Positions 19,885 to 37,007 of a DNA stretch of 64,000 nt are shown here, piece after piece. The translations under genes and the position numbers were made by a program. The notes beneath the pieces are model-generated. The model saw only the letters and a program-made list of their open reading frames with translations, was not told the DNA's origin and made no database searches. Position 1 is the stretch's first letter. Every line of letters begins with the position of its first letter. Source of the DNA: Blastococcus litoris (GTDB lineage Bacteria > Actinomycetota > Actinomycetes > Mycobacteriales > Geodermatophilaceae); contig NZ_QCZF01000001.1 of NCBI RefSeq assembly GCF_003075095.1, positions 62,001 through 126,000 on the forward strand. The letters run 5' to 3'.

Positions 19885-21057
19885 TCAGCCGGCCGGGTGG
19901 GCTGCCTCCGCCGCCGCGGTCGCCGCCCGCAGGACCTCCTTGACCGGCAGGCCGAGTTCCCGGGCCAGGGCGGCGACGTCCTCGTACTCGACGCTCACGT
20001 TGACCACCCGGCCGTCGTGGACGGCGACCTTGGTGCCGACGGTGCCGCCGAGCACCTGCACGGAGGTGTGCACGCGTTCCAGGGCGACCTTGCCGACGGG
20101 GACCACCCGCAGGCCGATGCTGGTCGTCGTCCGGAACACCGCCGCCCGGACGTCGGCCACGGCCTCGGGCCGGCACAGCGCCGAGAGCGTGTGGGCGGCG
20201 CGGCCCTTCTTCATCAGGATCGGGGTCAGCCAGGCGTCGGAGGCGCCCGCCGCGAACAGGGCGTCGAGGACGCCCGGCCACAGGCGGGGATCGAGGTCGT
20301 CGACGTTGGTCTCGAGGACCACCGGCCCGGCCGGCTCCGGCTCGGCCGGTTCGCCCAGGACGAGCCGGACGACGTTGGGCAGCTCGGCGGGGTCGCGCCC
20401 ACCCGCGCCCACGCCGACGCGCGCGACCCGCATCGGCGGCAGCGCCGTCCACTCGGAGACGCGGGCGGCGACCAGCGCAGCACCGGTGGGCGTGCACATC
20501 TCGGCGGGCACCGGCCCGGCGACCACCGGGATGCCGGCGAGCAGCTCGAGGACCGCCGGGCCGGGGACGGGGACGACGCCGTGCGCGCCGCGCGCCGAGC
20601 CGCTGCCGAGGGCGACGGGGGAGGCAGCGAGGCGGGTCAGCCCCAGGTGCTCGAACCCGGCGACCACGCCCACGACGTCCGCGAGCGCGTCCAGGGCCCC
20701 CACCTCGTGGAAGTGCACGTCGTCGGCCGCGACCCGGTGCACCCGCCCCTCGGCGACGGCCAGCCGCTCGAACACCGCGAGCGCGCCGTCGCGGACGGCG
20801 GCGGGCAGGTCGGCGTCGGCGAGCAGGCCGCGGACGTCGGCCCAGCTGCGGTGCTCGTGCGACTGCGGCGCGTGGACGTGCACGCGGGTGGCGCCCAGCC
20901 CGTGCCGGGTCGTCTGCTCGGTCACCAGCCGGATCTGCTCGACCGGCAGCGCGGCGACCGCGGTGGTGAGCACCTCGAGCGGCACCCCGGCGTCGACGAG
21001 GGCGCCCAGGAGCATGTCCCCGGACGCGCCGGCGGAGAGGTCCAGCCACCCGATCAT
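19885..21057 (-). CDS. larC: nickel-pincer cofactor biosynthesis protein LarC
   Basis: 390-aa LarC, the CTP-dependent cyclometallase that inserts nickel into the pincer nucleotide precursor. The N-terminus MIGWLDLSAGASGDMLLGAL is the family signature. His-rich HVHAPQSHEH, DDVHFHEVGALD, EMCTPTGAALV and the C-terminal ETNVDDLDPRLWP and LMKKGRAAHTLSALC regions all match. Both halves (LarC1 and LarC2 of Lactobacillus) are in one frame, with no sign of the programmed frameshift used there. Starts 47 bp after the GGDEF-LarB fusion gene. LarE, the sulfur donor, and LarA are not in the window. Confidence 0.92.
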   Translation of the reverse strand: MIGWLDLSAGASGDMLLGALVDAGVPLEVLTTAVAALPVEQIRLVTEQTTRHGLGATRVHVHAPQSHEHRSWADVRGLLADADLPAAVRDGALAVFERLAVAEGRVHRVAADDVHFHEVGALDALADVVGVVAGFEHLGLTRLAASPVALGSGSARGAHGVVPVPGPAVLELLAGIPVVAGPVPAEMCTPTGAALVAARVSEWTALPPMRVARVGVGAGGRDPAELPNVVRLVLGEPAEPEPAGPVVLETNVDDLDPRLWPGVLDALFAAGASDAWLTPILMKKGRAAHTLSALCRPEAVADVRAAVFRTTTSIGLRVVPVGKVALERVHTSVQVLGGTVGTKVAVHDGRVVNVSVEYEDVAALARELGLPVKEVLRAATAAAEAAHPAG

Positions 21058-21104: not shown

Positions 21105-23915
21105 TCAGGCGCGGGCGGCGCGGCGGGCGACCCGGGCCGCGAAGACGCCCGCGGAGTACCCGTTGTCGATGTTGGTCACGGCGACGCCCGGGGCCGCCGA
21201 GCTCAGCATGGTCATCAGCGCCCCGAGGCCGGCGAAGGCGGTGGGGGCGCCGGCCGACGTCGGCACCGCGATCACGGGGACGTCGGACACGGCGCCGACG
21301 GTGGCCGCCAGCGAGGCGTCCATCCCGGCGACGACGACCAGGCAGTCGACGTCCGCGACCAGCGAGCCGTCGGCCAGCAGCGACCGGATGCGGCTGCCCG
21401 CGAGGTCGTCCACCCGGACCGCCTCGGTACCGCTGACGCGGGCGACGAACGCCGCCTCGGCGGCGACCGGGAGGTCGGCGCCGCCGGCGCACAGCACGTG
21501 CACCCGGCCGACGGGCTCCGGCAGCGGGCCGACCACCGCCGCCATCGAGGCCGCATCCATCGTCGTGTACGCGTCGTGCTCGGAGGCGAGCGCGACCAGC
21601 GTCTCCGCAGGCGCCCGCAGCACCAGCGCCGGCCGGTCCGGGTGCTCGCGGCGGGCCTCGCGGACCAGTGCCAGGACCTGGTCGGTGGTGCGGCCGGTGG
21701 CCCAGACCACCTCTGGCTCGGCGGCGGGCCGGACCGGGGCCTCGGCCGCCACGACCTCGACCGGCGCGGGCGCCGGCGCGGGCTTGGGCTCGGGCGCGAG
21801 CAGCGGCTCGTCGACGGTGGCCCGCCCGAGGGGCGGGTCCAGCAGGACGGGGGCGAAGGCGGTGATCTCGTCGGCGACGGGGCGGGGGTCCAGCGGGGCG
21901 GGCTGCTCGTCCGCGACGGCGACCGCCACGGCCTCCTCCTCCGGGACCTCCTCCCCCGGGGCCTCGGCGGGCACCGTGTCCTCCGCGGGGGCCGACGGCG
22001 GCGGCCCGAACAGCGCGTCCAAAGGGGCGCCGCCGGGCGCCCGCGTCTGGGTGACGCCGGAGAGCCGGACGACGCGGTCGCGGCCGCTGCGCTTGGCGTC
22101 GTAGAGCACGCCGTCGGCGGCGGCGAACAGCGTCCGCCGGTCGTCGCCGCGGGCGGCGGAGGCGATGCCGACGCTGATCGTCACCGGGATGTCGATGCCC
22201 AGCGACGACCAGTCGTAGGTCGCGACCGACCGGCGGATCCGCTCCAGCGCGCGCTCGCCCTGCTCGGCGGTCGTCTCGGGCAGCAGGATGACGAACTCGT
22301 CCCCGGCCCAGCGGCAGACCTCGTCGGTGTCGCGGACACCGGCGACCAGCAGCTCGGCGACGGTGCGGAGCGCCGCGTCGCCGGCCGGATGGCCGAACGC
22401 GTCGTTGATGCCCTTGAACCGGTCCACGTCGACGACGGCGAGCGCGGGCGCACCGCCCGTCGTGAGCAGCCCGTCGAGCCGGGCCTCGGCGTACCGGCGG
22501 TTCGGCAGGTGGGTGAGCGGGTCCTCGTAGGCCTGGCGGCGCAGCTGGCCGGCGGCGCGCTCGGTCTCCAGCAGGCTCTTGCGCCGCCCGAACAGCTCGA
22601 CCCAGCGGGTGCGGCGCTCGTCGACGCGGTCCAGCTCGTCGGAGAGGTAGGCCTGCAGGTAGGGCAGTGCCCGGCCGGCGTCGTCCAGCTCGGCGTGCAG
22701 CGTGCACAGCTCGCGGAGGGCGGCGCGGCGCAGCCGGGGCAGGCCGTGCTCGGTGGCGAGGGTGAGCGCCGAGACGAGGTGCTCGTCGGCTTCCCCCACG
22801 TCGCCCTGGCGGCGCAGGGCACGGCCCAGCGCCAGCTGCGCCGAGGCGAGCTGCGCGCGGTCGGCGGTCGCGGAGGTGATCCGGACGGCGGCGCGCAGCG
22901 GACCCACGGCGGCGGCGTGCTCGCCGAGGCCCACCAGGGCCCAGCCGTGCACGACCTGGGCGGTGACGACGCCCGGGTGGTCGGGCGGGAGGAGCTCGAG
23001 CGCCTTCTCGGCCAGCTGCCGCGCCTCGCCGAAGTGCGGGGTGGCCGACTCGGGGACGCCGTCGTCCAGCAGGCCCTCGCCCAGCTCCGCGCAGAGCTCG
23101 CCGAGGCAGGTGGCGGTGGTGGCGACGAGGACGTCGGGGTCGCCGTCCTCCGGCCCGAGCCCGCCCGGGTCGGCGGCTGCGGTGATCGCCGCCTCGTGCG
23201 CCCGGCGCTGGTAGTCCAGCGCCAGCGGCATGAGCTCGAGGTCGGCCAGCACGCCGGCGAGCGTGCCGAGGGTGTCGACGAGCAGGGCGCTGGGCGGCAG
23301 GACCGGGTCGAGCAGGCTGGCCGCCTCGACCGCCTCGTCCATGGCCGCGTCGATCCGGCGCGACAGCAGCTCGATCCGCGCGTGGCGGGCCAGGCCGGCG
23401 GCGCGCTGCAGCTCGTCGTCCGCGGCGTCGAAGGCGGCCTTCGCCGACCGGACCAGCGCGATGGCGAGCGCGGCGCGGGTGGCCGACTCCGCGCGGGGGT
23501 CGCCGTCGCCGTCGCCGTCGATGAGCTTCTCGACGCCGGCGTGCAGGTCGAGGGCCTCGCCCTCGGCGGCGTCGGCGGTGACCGGGTCGCCGACGAGCGT
23601 GAACCCGGCGACGCGCAGCCGGCGGACGAGCAGCTCCGCGCGCAGCGTGTCGGCCCACGCCTTGCCCAGCGAGACGGGGGCGTCCACGGGCGGCTCCGCG
23701 GCGACGTAGGGCGAGGACTCCTGGTCGACGTCGGCGAGGAGCTCCTCGGCGTCGTCCAGCTGCCAGTTCGCGAGCGCAGCGGTCACCCGATGATGCAGGG
23801 CTCCGGGCGGCACCAGCGCACTGTGCACGTCACCGGCGCGGGTGTCGAGCAGGTGTTCGGAAACGCGCCGTCCCCCGTCCGACGCGTCCCACCCGCCCCA
23901 GGCGGAGCGCGTCAC
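21105..23915 (-). CDS. TPR-like/GGDEF diguanylate cyclase fused to a LarB-like domain
   Basis: 936-aa fusion in one uninterrupted frame. Residues 40-440: helical TPR-like repeats. About 452-617: GGDEF domain with VVDVDRFKGINDAFGH, AGDEF at 537-541 and an RDTD I-site five residues before it, so c-di-GMP synthesis with product inhibition is plausible. About 620-733: Pro/Ala/Glu linker. 734-936: LarB (PurE-like) domain, PEVVWATGRT, AGGADLPVA, VVVAGMDASL, VIAVPTSAG, NIDNGY. The LarB active-site cysteine in the LNSC or LASC motif of the family is here Ala907 (LSSA), so canonical NaAD carboxylase activity is doubtful. GTG start overlaps the stop of the preceding GGDEF gene (GTGA). Confidence 0.88.
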   Translation of the reverse strand: MTRSAWGGWDASDGGRRVSEHLLDTRAGDVHSALVPPGALHHRVTAALANWQLDDAEELLADVDQESSPYVAAEPPVDAPVSLGKAWADTLRAELLVRRLRVAGFTLVGDPVTADAAEGEALDLHAGVEKLIDGDGDGDPRAESATRAALAIALVRSAKAAFDAADDELQRAAGLARHARIELLSRRIDAAMDEAVEAASLLDPVLPPSALLVDTLGTLAGVLADLELMPLALDYQRRAHEAAITAAADPGGLGPEDGDPDVLVATTATCLGELCAELGEGLLDDGVPESATPHFGEARQLAEKALELLPPDHPGVVTAQVVHGWALVGLGEHAAAVGPLRAAVRITSATADRAQLASAQLALGRALRRQGDVGEADEHLVSALTLATEHGLPRLRRAALRELCTLHAELDDAGRALPYLQAYLSDELDRVDERRTRWVELFGRRKSLLETERAAGQLRRQAYEDPLTHLPNRRYAEARLDGLLTTGGAPALAVVDVDRFKGINDAFGHPAGDAALRTVAELLVAGVRDTDEVCRWAGDEFVILLPETTAEQGERALERIRRSVATYDWSSLGIDIPVTISVGIASAARGDDRRTLFAAADGVLYDAKRSGRDRVVRLSGVTQTRAPGGAPLDALFGPPPSAPAEDTVPAEAPGEEVPEEEAVAVAVADEQPAPLDPRPVADEITAFAPVLLDPPLGRATVDEPLLAPEPKPAPAPAPVEVVAAEAPVRPAAEPEVVWATGRTTDQVLALVREARREHPDRPALVLRAPAETLVALASEHDAYTTMDAASMAAVVGPLPEPVGRVHVLCAGGADLPVAAEAAFVARVSGTEAVRVDDLAGSRIRSLLADGSLVADVDCLVVVAGMDASLAATVGAVSDVPVIAVPTSAGAPTAFAGLGALMTMLSSAAPGVAVTNIDNGYSAGVFAARVARRAARA

Positions 23916-25703: not shown

Positions 25704-26648
25704 ATGCCCGGGATGCACCCCAGAACAGGTCCGACGCGGTTCGCCTATCTCGGGCCCGAGGGTACCTTCGCCGAGGCGGCGCTCCGCAGCACGCTTGCCT
25801 CCTCTGAGGGAGCGCTGTACCCCCAGCCGAGTGTCACCGCGGCCCTGGCCGCCGTCCGATCGGGCGACGCGGACGCCGCACTGGTCCCGCTGGAGAACTC
25901 CGTCGAGGGTTCGGTGCCCGCGACGATGGACGGGCTGGCCCAGGGCGACCCGCTGGTGATCACCCGCGAGGTCGTCCGCGACGTGGCGTTCGTGCTCGGC
26001 GTGCGGCCCGGCACGGAGCTGGCCGGAGTGCGCTCGGTGGTCAGCCACCCGCACGCCCTCGCGCAGACCGCCGGGCGGCTGGCGGAGCTGTTCCCCGACG
26101 TCGTCCCGCTGCCGCTGTCGTCGACGGCGGGTGCCGCGGCGGCGGTCGCGGCGGGGGAGCACGACGCCGCCGTCTGCGCGCCCATCGCCGCCGAGCGCTA
26201 CGGGCTGGCGCCGCTGGTCGAGGACCTCGCCGACACCCCCGGCGCGGTGACCCGGTTCGTCGTGGTGGAGCCGGCCGGTGCCCTGCCGGCGCCCACCGCC
26301 AACGACAAGACCTCGCTGGTCGTCGTCGTCGAGGACCGCACCGGCGCGCTCCTCGACGTGCTGCGCGAGTTCGCCGTCCGCGACATCTCGCTGACCCGCA
26401 TCGAGTCGCGGCCCATCCGGGAACGCAAGTGGGTCTACTCCTTCTCGCTCGACTGCGAGGGCCACGTGGCCGAGGGCCGGGTGGGCGAGGCCCTGGCCGC
26501 GCTGCACCGGGTCGCGGAGGACGTCCGCTTCCTCGGCTCGTACCCGCGGGCCGACGGACGCGACAACCGGCCGGTGCCCGCGTCGGCCGCCGACGCGGCC
26601 TTCGCCGAGGCGGGGGAGTGGCTGGCCCGGGTCCGCGAGGGCGGCTAG
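25704..26648 (+). CDS. pheA: prephenate dehydratase
   Basis: 314-aa monofunctional prephenate dehydratase (prephenate to phenylpyruvate, phenylalanine synthesis). The catalytic domain begins RFAYLGPEGTFAEAAL and contains PLENSVEGSV, VVSHPHALAQ and the catalytic TRF motif (VTRFVVVEP). It is followed by an ACT regulatory domain, TGALLDVLREFA and ESRPIRE, the phenylalanine-binding ESRP motif, so feedback inhibition is expected. A short Ala-rich tail follows. Leaderless start likely. Its stop is 4 bp from that of the convergent panE-like gene. Confidence 0.95.
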   Translation: MPGMHPRTGPTRFAYLGPEGTFAEAALRSTLASSEGALYPQPSVTAALAAVRSGDADAALVPLENSVEGSVPATMDGLAQGDPLVITREVVRDVAFVLGVRPGTELAGVRSVVSHPHALAQTAGRLAELFPDVVPLPLSSTAGAAAAVAAGEHDAAVCAPIAAERYGLAPLVEDLADTPGAVTRFVVVEPAGALPAPTANDKTSLVVVVEDRTGALLDVLREFAVRDISLTRIESRPIRERKWVYSFSLDCEGHVAEGRVGEALAALHRVAEDVRFLGSYPRADGRDNRPVPASAADAAFAEAGEWLARVREGG

Positions 26649-32619: not shown

Positions 32620-35927
<3,308 letters not shown>

Positions 35928-35931
<4 letters not shown>

Positions 35932-37007
35932 CGGACGACCGCCAGGGCGGGACGGCGCGGTCGTGCGTCCAGGTCGTCGAGCGTCGCGCGGGCGGCCCCG
36001 GCGGCCTGGCCGGACCCGGCGGCCACCTCCTCGAGCCAGGTCCGTCCTTCGGCGCCGAGGCCGGCGAGGGCGTCGGCGCACGCGGAGCGCACCGAGACGT
36101 CGGGCGCGGCCATGCCGGCCAGCAGGGGGATCGCCGCCACCGGGTCCCCGACCCGGCCGAGGGCCTCGGCGCTGGTGCGCTGCAGAACGGGGTCGTCGTC
36201 GGTGGTGAGGGCCCGCACCAGCGGCTCGGTCGAGCGCGGCGAGCCGATGCGGCCCAGCGCCGCGGCGGCGGCGACACGGACGGCGGAGGGCTCGTCCGCG
36301 TTCCGGAGCAGCTCCTCGAGGAGGGGCGCGGCCTCCACGTCGCCGTGCACGCCGAGCAGCTCGGCGATCAGCCCGCGGGCATGGGTGTGCTCGCCGGTGA
36401 GGGCGCCGCGCAGCACGGCCAGCGCCGTGGTGCCGAGGTCGAGCAGGGCCATGCCCACGACGCCGTGCGGGAGGGCGCGGGCGCCGGACATCGCGGGCAG
36501 GAGGTAGGCGACGGCGGCAGGGTCGCCGGCCTTGCCGAGCGCACGGGCGGCGGCGCAGCGGACCTCGAGGGAGCGGTCCTGCAGGCGGGCGGCCAGGACG
36601 GCGATGTGGTGGCTGCCCGCGGCCGAGCCCAGCAGGGCCACGGCGCGGCCCCGGCGCCAGGACTTGCGCGCGGTCAGGTCGGCGACGGCGCGGGCGACGA
36701 CGCCACGCTCGGCGAGCAGCCGCCGGAGGATCTCGCGGTCCGTGCCGCGCAGCTGGGGGAGGAGCTCGAGGACCACCTCGTCCAGGGAGCCGGGGGCGTT
36801 CACCAGGTCGGGCACCGGCACGGCGTCCGTCGGGTCGTCGTCCAGCAGGGCGTGGACCAGCGGCGTCATCTCCCGCTTCCGCCGCTCGTCGCGGGCCTGC
36901 CGGCGGGCCCGTGCCAGGTGGGTCGCGGCCACGGACAGGAGGAGGGCCACGATCGCGGCCGTCACGCCCGCTCCGGCCAGCAGGACGGGCCCGACGGGCG
37001 GCGTCAT
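35928..37007 (-). CDS. membrane-anchored HEAT-repeat protein
   Basis: 359-aa protein with an N-terminal membrane helix (VTAAIVALLLSVAATHLARA) and about seven HEAT/PBS-lyase-like repeats, e.g. LEVRCAAARALGKAGD, VRVAAAAALGRIGS, LQRTSAEALGRVGD and VRSACADALAGLGA. HEAT arrays are protein-binding scaffolds. Its position between a stand-alone response regulator and a glycan synthase, with 4-bp overlaps on both sides, suggests it passes a signal or holds the synthase complex together (inference). Confidence 0.85.

Follow-up and report, generated by a model that had tools for sequence, protein, structure and literature searches.

LarB, LarE and LarC are the proteins of the nickel-pincer nucleotide pathway (PMC11796402, PMC9283937). 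Diguanylate cyclases of the PleD and WspR type combine a GGDEF domain, which makes cyclic di-GMP (c-di-GMP), with a sensory domain. The LarB substrate is nicotinic acid adenine dinucleotide (NaAD), an intermediate in the synthesis of nicotinamide adenine dinucleotide (NAD); Cys221 is the catalytic nucleophile of LarB, and the title of the LarB structure paper names a cysteinyl-pyridine intermediate. Here, we analysed the window, a 64,000-nucleotide stretch of DNA from Blastococcus litoris, which belongs to the Geodermatophilaceae, an actinobacterial family that lives in soil and on rock. It bears a gene where a GGDEF domain and a LarB-like domain are joined in one open frame. We favour, with moderate confidence, the view that this gene encodes a diguanylate cyclase whose C-terminal LarB domain, devoid of the catalytic residues, is a pseudoenzyme with a regulatory, sensing role.

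A search of the open-access literature yielded nothing on a LarB-GGDEF fusion or on GGDEF combined with an AIR (aminoimidazole ribonucleotide) carboxylase, and nothing linking diguanylate cyclase, NAD and nicotinic acid adenine dinucleotide. The terms LarB, "nicotin-" and carboxylase do not occur in a review on how c-di-GMP enzymes receive sensory inputs (PMC8846402).

Residues and fold of the fused domains

The initial annotation had described one continuous 936-codon frame joining TPR-like repeats, a GGDEF domain, a linker and a LarB domain, and this description was borne out by the frame itself, unbroken from its GTG start, and by the profile matches (Table 1). The GGDEF domain scored far above the Pfam cut-off of 23.8 bits and was also matched by TIGR00254 (residues 458-616); its RDTD I-site is at residues 528-531, and its AGDEF signature (537-541) lies where the annotation had placed it. 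NCBIfam LarB matched residues 734-931 with 154.4 bits (E 3.3e-45), which is under the curated cut-off of 175 bits, and Pfam AIRC matched residues 855-930 with 32.4 bits (cut-off 30). For the N-terminus, TPR_12 gave 30.2 bits (cut-off 30.1) and TPR_MalT 33.4 bits, below its cut-off of 45. The linker is rich in Pro (0.24), Ala (0.22) and Glu (0.12) within residues 626-730, and in 90 relatives it is 72-179 residues long (median 119).

One hundred fused domains from the family were compared with 29 stand-alone LarBs, i.e., that of L. plantarum and those of 28 actinobacterial loci. The Cys221 column holds Cys in 29/29 stand-alone proteins and in 0/100 fused domains, where it is occupied by Ala (78), Ser (10), Thr (6), Gly (4) or Pro (2). 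The B. litoris protein has Ala907 here (codon 21195-21197), so the alanine noticed in the initial annotation does align with Cys221 of L. plantarum LarB. No fused domain has Ser in the Ser127 column either (Gly 50, Ala 46, Pro 2, Val 2); among the stand-alone LarBs, 26 of the 29 have Ser and three have Ala, one of these being the S127A crystal chain that served as a reference. Thus, both residues are gone in 100/100 fused domains. The S127A variant of LarB was reportedly made to trap or hold the substrate; if that is right, the fused domain has by nature a substitution that suits a state in which the ligand is bound without reacting. S127A variants are named in PDB titles of several LarB complexes.

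Other columns are kept almost without change: Asp128 in 98/100 fused domains, and Glu134, Pro199, Thr200, Ser201, Gly224 and Asp231 in 100/100 each. The structural glycines, the prolines and the last helix are retained as well, while several pocket columns have changed. Furthermore, the fused group has acquired near-fixed residues of its own, namely Arg for Lys57 (99/100), Arg for Gly156 (90/100) and Ala at position 181 (100/100, also found in 2/29 stand-alone LarBs). Judged by sequence, the fused LarB is a pseudoenzyme, and its residue pattern looks like that of a pocket which was remodelled and then constrained, not one in free decay.

The initial annotation had allowed for a catalytic cysteine supplied from elsewhere. 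The motif itself has no Cys; nevertheless, the domain contains Cys809 and Cys858, which leaves part of that caveat standing. Cys809 (codon 21489-21491) corresponds to LarB position 123, immediately before the AGTSD loop, and is present in 80/100 fused domains vs. 3/29 stand-alone LarBs, the remaining 20 fused domains having Ser, Arg, Gly or a gap; Cys858 is found in 99/100 and 15/29, respectively. Among the fused domains we found no substitute nucleophile that is both unique to them and universal, Cys809 being a candidate in most.

Structure prediction, which the initial annotation had proposed, recovered the LarB fold with high confidence: the domain matches L. plantarum LarB (PDB 7mj0-7mj2, 8soq, 8stc, 8std) with a template modelling (TM) score of 0.86 and 37-39% identity over ~200 residues. 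By comparison, the match to the PurE/AIR carboxylase fold is confined to the final ~130 residues, and the LarB-specific N-terminal part is present in the fusion; two PurE entries in the fold-match lists, 3oow and 3opq, are titled octameric. In the AlphaFold2 model, the N-terminus consists mainly of helices and helical hairpins, with a predicted local distance difference test score (pLDDT) of 79-97 for the block ~201-410, and pLDDT falls below 50 across most of the linker (619-733). The full-length model has a predicted TM score (pTM) of 0.45, at which the mutual arrangement of the domains is uninterpretable.

As for the GGDEF domain, Asp496, Lys501, Asn504, Asp513, the AGDE of AGDEF, Lys608 and Arg612, as well as Arg528 and Asp531 of the I-site, are identical in 91/91 in-frame relatives, and position 541 is Phe in 87 of them and Tyr in four. 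We assign the roles of these residues (metal, guanine-binding, signature, I-site) as in PleD, presuming them to be the same. The cyclase looks active by these residues and appears to have a product-inhibition site. It resembles PleD and WspR in all the catalytic and I-site columns examined, and its GGDEF domain aligns to both chains; unlike in cyclases of this type, the extra domain of the fusion stands at the C-terminus and stems from an enzyme of cofactor synthesis. An effector for c-di-GMP, RsiG, is given for 16/16 Geodermatophilaceae species examined in PMC8325347.

Spread of the fusion and its independence of the lar pathway

The fused type was found in 101 of the 112 family genomes searched and in 101/103 of those outside three genera designated g5-g7; the genus of B. 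litoris had it in 16/16 genomes. One of the 101 (G010), where the fusion is divided between two contigs, is omitted, along with duplicate loci, from the alignment of 100. Named relatives with the fusion belong to Blastococcus, Modestobacter, Geodermatophilus, Klenkia and Goekera; this named collection comprises 80 loci kept from 194 relatives, and since its loci are for the most part those of the family genomes again, it does not count as an independent sample. The frame is open across GGDEF and LarB in 91/100 aligned loci. Six are truncated by a contig end (G006, G017, G023, G034, G081, G096) and three are broken, by an in-frame stop before GGDEF (G008) or by a frameshift in the GGDEF-LarB linker (G046, G091); these breaks are either sequencing errors or real losses.

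The 11 family genomes without the fusion comprise nine of g5-g7, plus G080 and G097. Stand-alone LarB is present in all seven g5-g7 genomes inspected (the other two being G066 and G068). No LarB match, fused or separate, was found in G080 (99% complete), the sole near-complete genome of this kind outside g5-g7, and the search of G097 (72% complete) found a canonical LarB alone and no fusion. Searches beyond the family gave a similar outcome. A class sample had LarB matches in 87/394 genomes, the known fusions there being those of the query genome (G000) and G038; of the other matches listed, the 12 whose open frame exceeded 500 aa were inspected, and none had an in-frame GGDEF. LarB matches occurred in 104/298 genomes of an order sample (family included), where 17 non-family loci were inspected and none was fused, and in 232/396 genomes of a phylum sample, where the longest frame among the matches listed (~150) was at most 681 aa. 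Nor was any fusion found among the 23 loci of the named collection, inside and outside the family, that are <60% identical to the query. Judging by sequence, the fusion is thus seen in Geodermatophilaceae only, among the loci inspected.

In the B. litoris genome, a LarB apart from the fusion (241 bits, motif LTAC) lies divergent to LarE on another contig (C11, loci L001/L038); the genome-wide search found no LarA match and no LarC match except that of the window. Across the 112 family genomes, LarE was found in 72, LarC in 82 and LarA in 35. A second LarB together with LarE and LarC is present in 62 of the 101 fusion genomes, 30 of which also have LarA; the other 32 have this set without LarA, and another cofactor user is possible there. 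In 28 fusion genomes, all with a completeness of 95% or more, the searches gave no match to a second LarB, LarE, LarC or LarA. Of the remainder, seven retain LarC alone, two (incomplete) have LarC and LarA, and two have a second LarB, LarC and LarA, with no LarE found. The query genome carries a LarB/LarE pair apart from the fusion, and the 28 fusion genomes just named lack any further lar gene; we conclude from this that the fused LarB is not needed for nickel-pincer synthesis. On the same grounds, the fused LarB as the nickel-pincer enzyme of the genome was set low.

Selection on the fused LarB was followed by the ratio of nonsynonymous to synonymous substitutions (dN/dS, Nei-Gojobori, on GC-rich genes) in two sets, each comparable only within itself: a family-wide set of pairs with dS 0.1-1 and a larC-control set, from which saturated pairs alone were dropped. 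In the family-wide set, the median dN/dS of the fused LarB was 0.414 in the 28 lar-free genomes and 0.363 in 61 genomes with the pathway, vs. 0.270 and 0.243 for GGDEF, and 0.395 and 0.361 for the TPR-like part. Every pair gave a dN/dS of the fused LarB below 1 (maximum 0.91), and 84/207 columns in the lar-free genomes and 81/208 in those with the pathway are at least 95% identical. The results show that, as far as the sequences tell, the fused LarB is under constraint with or without the pathway, a little more weakly in its absence, and that GGDEF is the more strongly constrained of the two domains.

The larC control, for relaxed selection, covered four of the seven LarC-only genomes (not G033, G057 and G081) and nine of the 62 pathway genomes, with some GGDEF pairs missing. 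The dN/dS values were 0.29-0.44 for larC and 0.10-0.20 for the fused LarB in the four LarC-only genomes (six pairs each), vs. 0.13-0.33 and 0.17-0.45, respectively, in the nine pathway genomes (36 pairs each). By these substitution rates, larC erodes in the four genomes without LarE, whereas the fused LarB stays constrained. The larC genes concerned, beside the fusion in L059, L067, L058 and L052 (G017, G026, G028, G030), were kept after the loss of LarE and the second LarB, and their conserved stretches are eroding.

Neighbourhood and origin of the fusion

Table 1. Features of the fusion gene and its neighbours in the B. litoris window
Feature	Position	Strand	Basis
Fusion gene, 936 aa: TPR-like region, GGDEF, linker, LarB-like domain	21105..23915	-	frame and profile matches
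N-terminal helical/TPR-like region, ~residues 21-440	22596..23855	-	Pfam and AlphaFold2 model
GGDEF diguanylate cyclase domain, residues 462-614	22074..22532	-	Pfam, 131.5 bits
Pro/Ala/Glu-rich linker, residues 619-732	21720..22061	-	composition, pLDDT
LarB-like domain, residues 734-931; Ala907 in the Cys221 column, Ala813 in the Ser127 column	21123..21716	-	
larC (nickel insertion protein), 47 nt downstream and next in what appears to be one operon	19885..21057	-	Pfam Ni_insertion, 439 bits; NCBIfam LarC1/LarC2 over cut-off
DGC1, upstream GGDEF paralogue, 586 aa	23912..25672	-	Pfam GGDEF, 101.7 bits; RTGD/AGDEF motif
pheA (prephenate dehydratase), divergent neighbour	25707..26648	+	Pfam PDT, 153 bits, and ACT; marks the ancestral pheA-larB-larC site by synteny

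The upstream cyclase gene, DGC1, overlaps the GTG start of the fusion by 4 nt with its stop codon and is immediately upstream in 50/50 of the named fused loci whose sequence extends 4500 bases or more 5' of the LarB match. The two proteins are ~40% identical across the TPR-like and GGDEF parts and may work together. On the other side, larC lies downstream of the fusion in 39/53 named fused loci, within the DNA examined; in three loci of Blastococcus relatives (L166, L167, L178), ~4.5 kb separates the two. A family 2 glycosyltransferase gene (34489-36081, minus strand), ~9 kb from the cyclases, possibly encodes a matrix-polysaccharide enzyme.

The genes pheA, larB and larC stand together, with pheA divergent, in the four g7 loci inspected and in a number of other lineages, larB often overlapping larC by a few bases. 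In the same 50 named fused loci, DGC1 and the fused cyclase stand between pheA and the LarB part. A quick tree of 25 representatives of the 100 fused rows and 65 stand-alone LarBs placed the fused domains in one clade (Shimodaira-Hasegawa-like approximate likelihood ratio test, SH-aLRT, 100) with a long stem (0.82), nested among the LarBs of larB-larC pairs from g6, g7 and related lineages (branch supports 80-92 and 95); the LarE-linked LarB of the query genome was placed elsewhere, away from this clade. Taken together, the sequences allow us to conclude that the fusion has one origin, family-wide. In the simplest history, whose order of steps we infer, the cyclase pair would have come between pheA and larB, and the second cyclase would then have joined to larB; the catalysis of LarB would have been lost, and a second LarB beside LarE would have served, or come to serve, the nickel-pincer pathway.

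The LarB domain as a probable input to the cyclase

Compared with L. plantarum LarB, the fused domain has the same predicted fold, Asp128, Glu134, the PTS motif and Asp231. Unlike it, the domain is devoid of Cys221 and Ser127, has mostly changed Tyr204, Gly205, His158 and Arg159 columns, is fused to a cyclase and occurs without LarE and LarC. Since the fold is kept, the pocket is constrained but altered, the catalytic residues are gone and an intact cyclase is tethered to it, the C-terminal LarB domain is best read as an input to the cyclase, with sensing and multimer scaffolding as two live forms. We prefer sensing because the pocket acids are kept. The initial annotation had suggested a LarB fold repurposed to bind a pyridine nucleotide and control c-di-GMP synthesis: the repurposed regulator agrees with the sequences (Cys221/Ser127 lost in 100/100, cyclase residues invariant in 91/91, fold kept), while the pyridine nucleotide is a ligand that we infer.

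In a sensing mechanism, the pocket inherited from LarB would still accept a nucleotide-type ligand, NaAD being a candidate that would still be made by cells without lar genes. Ligand binding would, across the flexible linker, alter the pairing of GGDEF domains, and the c-di-GMP output would thereby follow the ligand metabolite; another input would come from the TPR-like N-terminus, through the binding of proteins. That the domain reads NaAD or a near relative, so that a captured cofactor-synthesis gene became a metabolite sensor of c-di-GMP signalling, is put forward tentatively, as a rather unlikely case.

Several observations weigh against a sensor of this kind. Columns invariant in the 29 stand-alone LarBs are altered in the fused domains: Tyr204 is kept in 0/100 (mostly Gln), Arg159 in 1/100, Gly156 in 1/100 (mostly Arg), Val154 in 3/100, Gly205 in 7/100 (mostly Pro) and His158 in 8/100 (mostly Arg). 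These changes argue against an unchanged recognition of NaAD, and the ligand could be other than a pyridine nucleotide. The Cys221 column has not settled on one residue in the fused group, and Cys809, beside the pocket loop, may be a redox-sensing or ligand-reactive thiol or may support a different chemistry. The fused LarB is also more variable than GGDEF (mean identity 0.735-0.743 vs. 0.852-0.873), its dN/dS medians (0.41 and 0.36) exceed those of GGDEF (0.27 and 0.24), and it is slightly less constrained in the lar-free genomes (0.414 vs. 0.363). Finally, the long linker is as compatible with tethering or assembly as it is with allostery.

The last point leads to the alternative that survives best, although we consider it improbable on balance: the LarB domain may be a ligand-free assembly scaffold, which gathers GGDEF domains on long tethers, such that the local concentration stimulates the cyclase or strengthens the feedback by c-di-GMP. 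Multimers are known among PurE-fold proteins, and the confidently predicted fold, the octameric titles of 3oow and 3opq, the long low-confidence linker and the retention of structural glycines, prolines and the last helix beside changed pocket columns are all consistent with this. However, a scaffold has no obvious need of Asp128, Glu134 and Asp231, which are 98-100% fixed, and for dimerisation of the cyclase the N-terminal helices could suffice.

It is still less probable that the domain is a decaying passenger of a useful cyclase. The loss of the catalytic residues, the stop or frameshifts in 3/100 loci, and an evolution faster than that of GGDEF and slightly faster in lar-free genomes would fit decay; nevertheless, an unconstrained relic was rejected in view of the dN/dS below 1 in all the pairs with dS 0.1-1, the conserved columns in both groups and the dN/dS lower than in the eroding neighbour larC. 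The retention of the fusion in nearly all the genomes outside g5-g7 also speaks against a passenger.

We regard as very doubtful the idea that the domain has remained catalytic, either with LarB activity through a substitute nucleophile (Cys809, for example) or with a new reaction, and is coupled by the fusion to c-di-GMP; were it not for Cys809, we would rate it even lower. The presence of larC as the next gene, in the window as in most named fused loci, favours it, as does the occurrence of Cys809 in 80/100 fused domains. Against it stand the absence of both Cys221 and Ser127 throughout, the lack of Cys809 in 20/100 and a LarB score under the NCBIfam cut-off (154.4 vs. 175 bits). Both this idea and that of a cofactor enzyme regulated by c-di-GMP, the other option of the initial annotation, are disfavoured by the LarB adjoining LarE in the query genome and by the 28 near-complete fusion genomes where no other lar gene was found. 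An assembly or gene-calling artefact joining two genes, conceivable in a high-GC sequence with many overlapping open frames, was rejected as next to impossible, since the sequencing error or frameshift that the initial annotation had named as refuting the fusion was checked in relatives, where the same in-frame join recurs in 91/100 loci, the others being contig-cut (six) or broken (three).

Many c-di-GMP cyclases have unknown inputs, and here the input domain is traceable to a LarB gene beside pheA and larC. The catalytic residues are lost throughout and the domain is kept without the pathway, which makes a short list of ligands testable (NaAD, nicotinic acid mononucleotide, NAD, AMP and the like). 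Proteins of this type should not be annotated as nickel-pincer enzymes. If the domain is a scaffold, it would represent a new way of assembling cyclases; if it is a pyridine-nucleotide sensor, it would link NAD metabolism to c-di-GMP.

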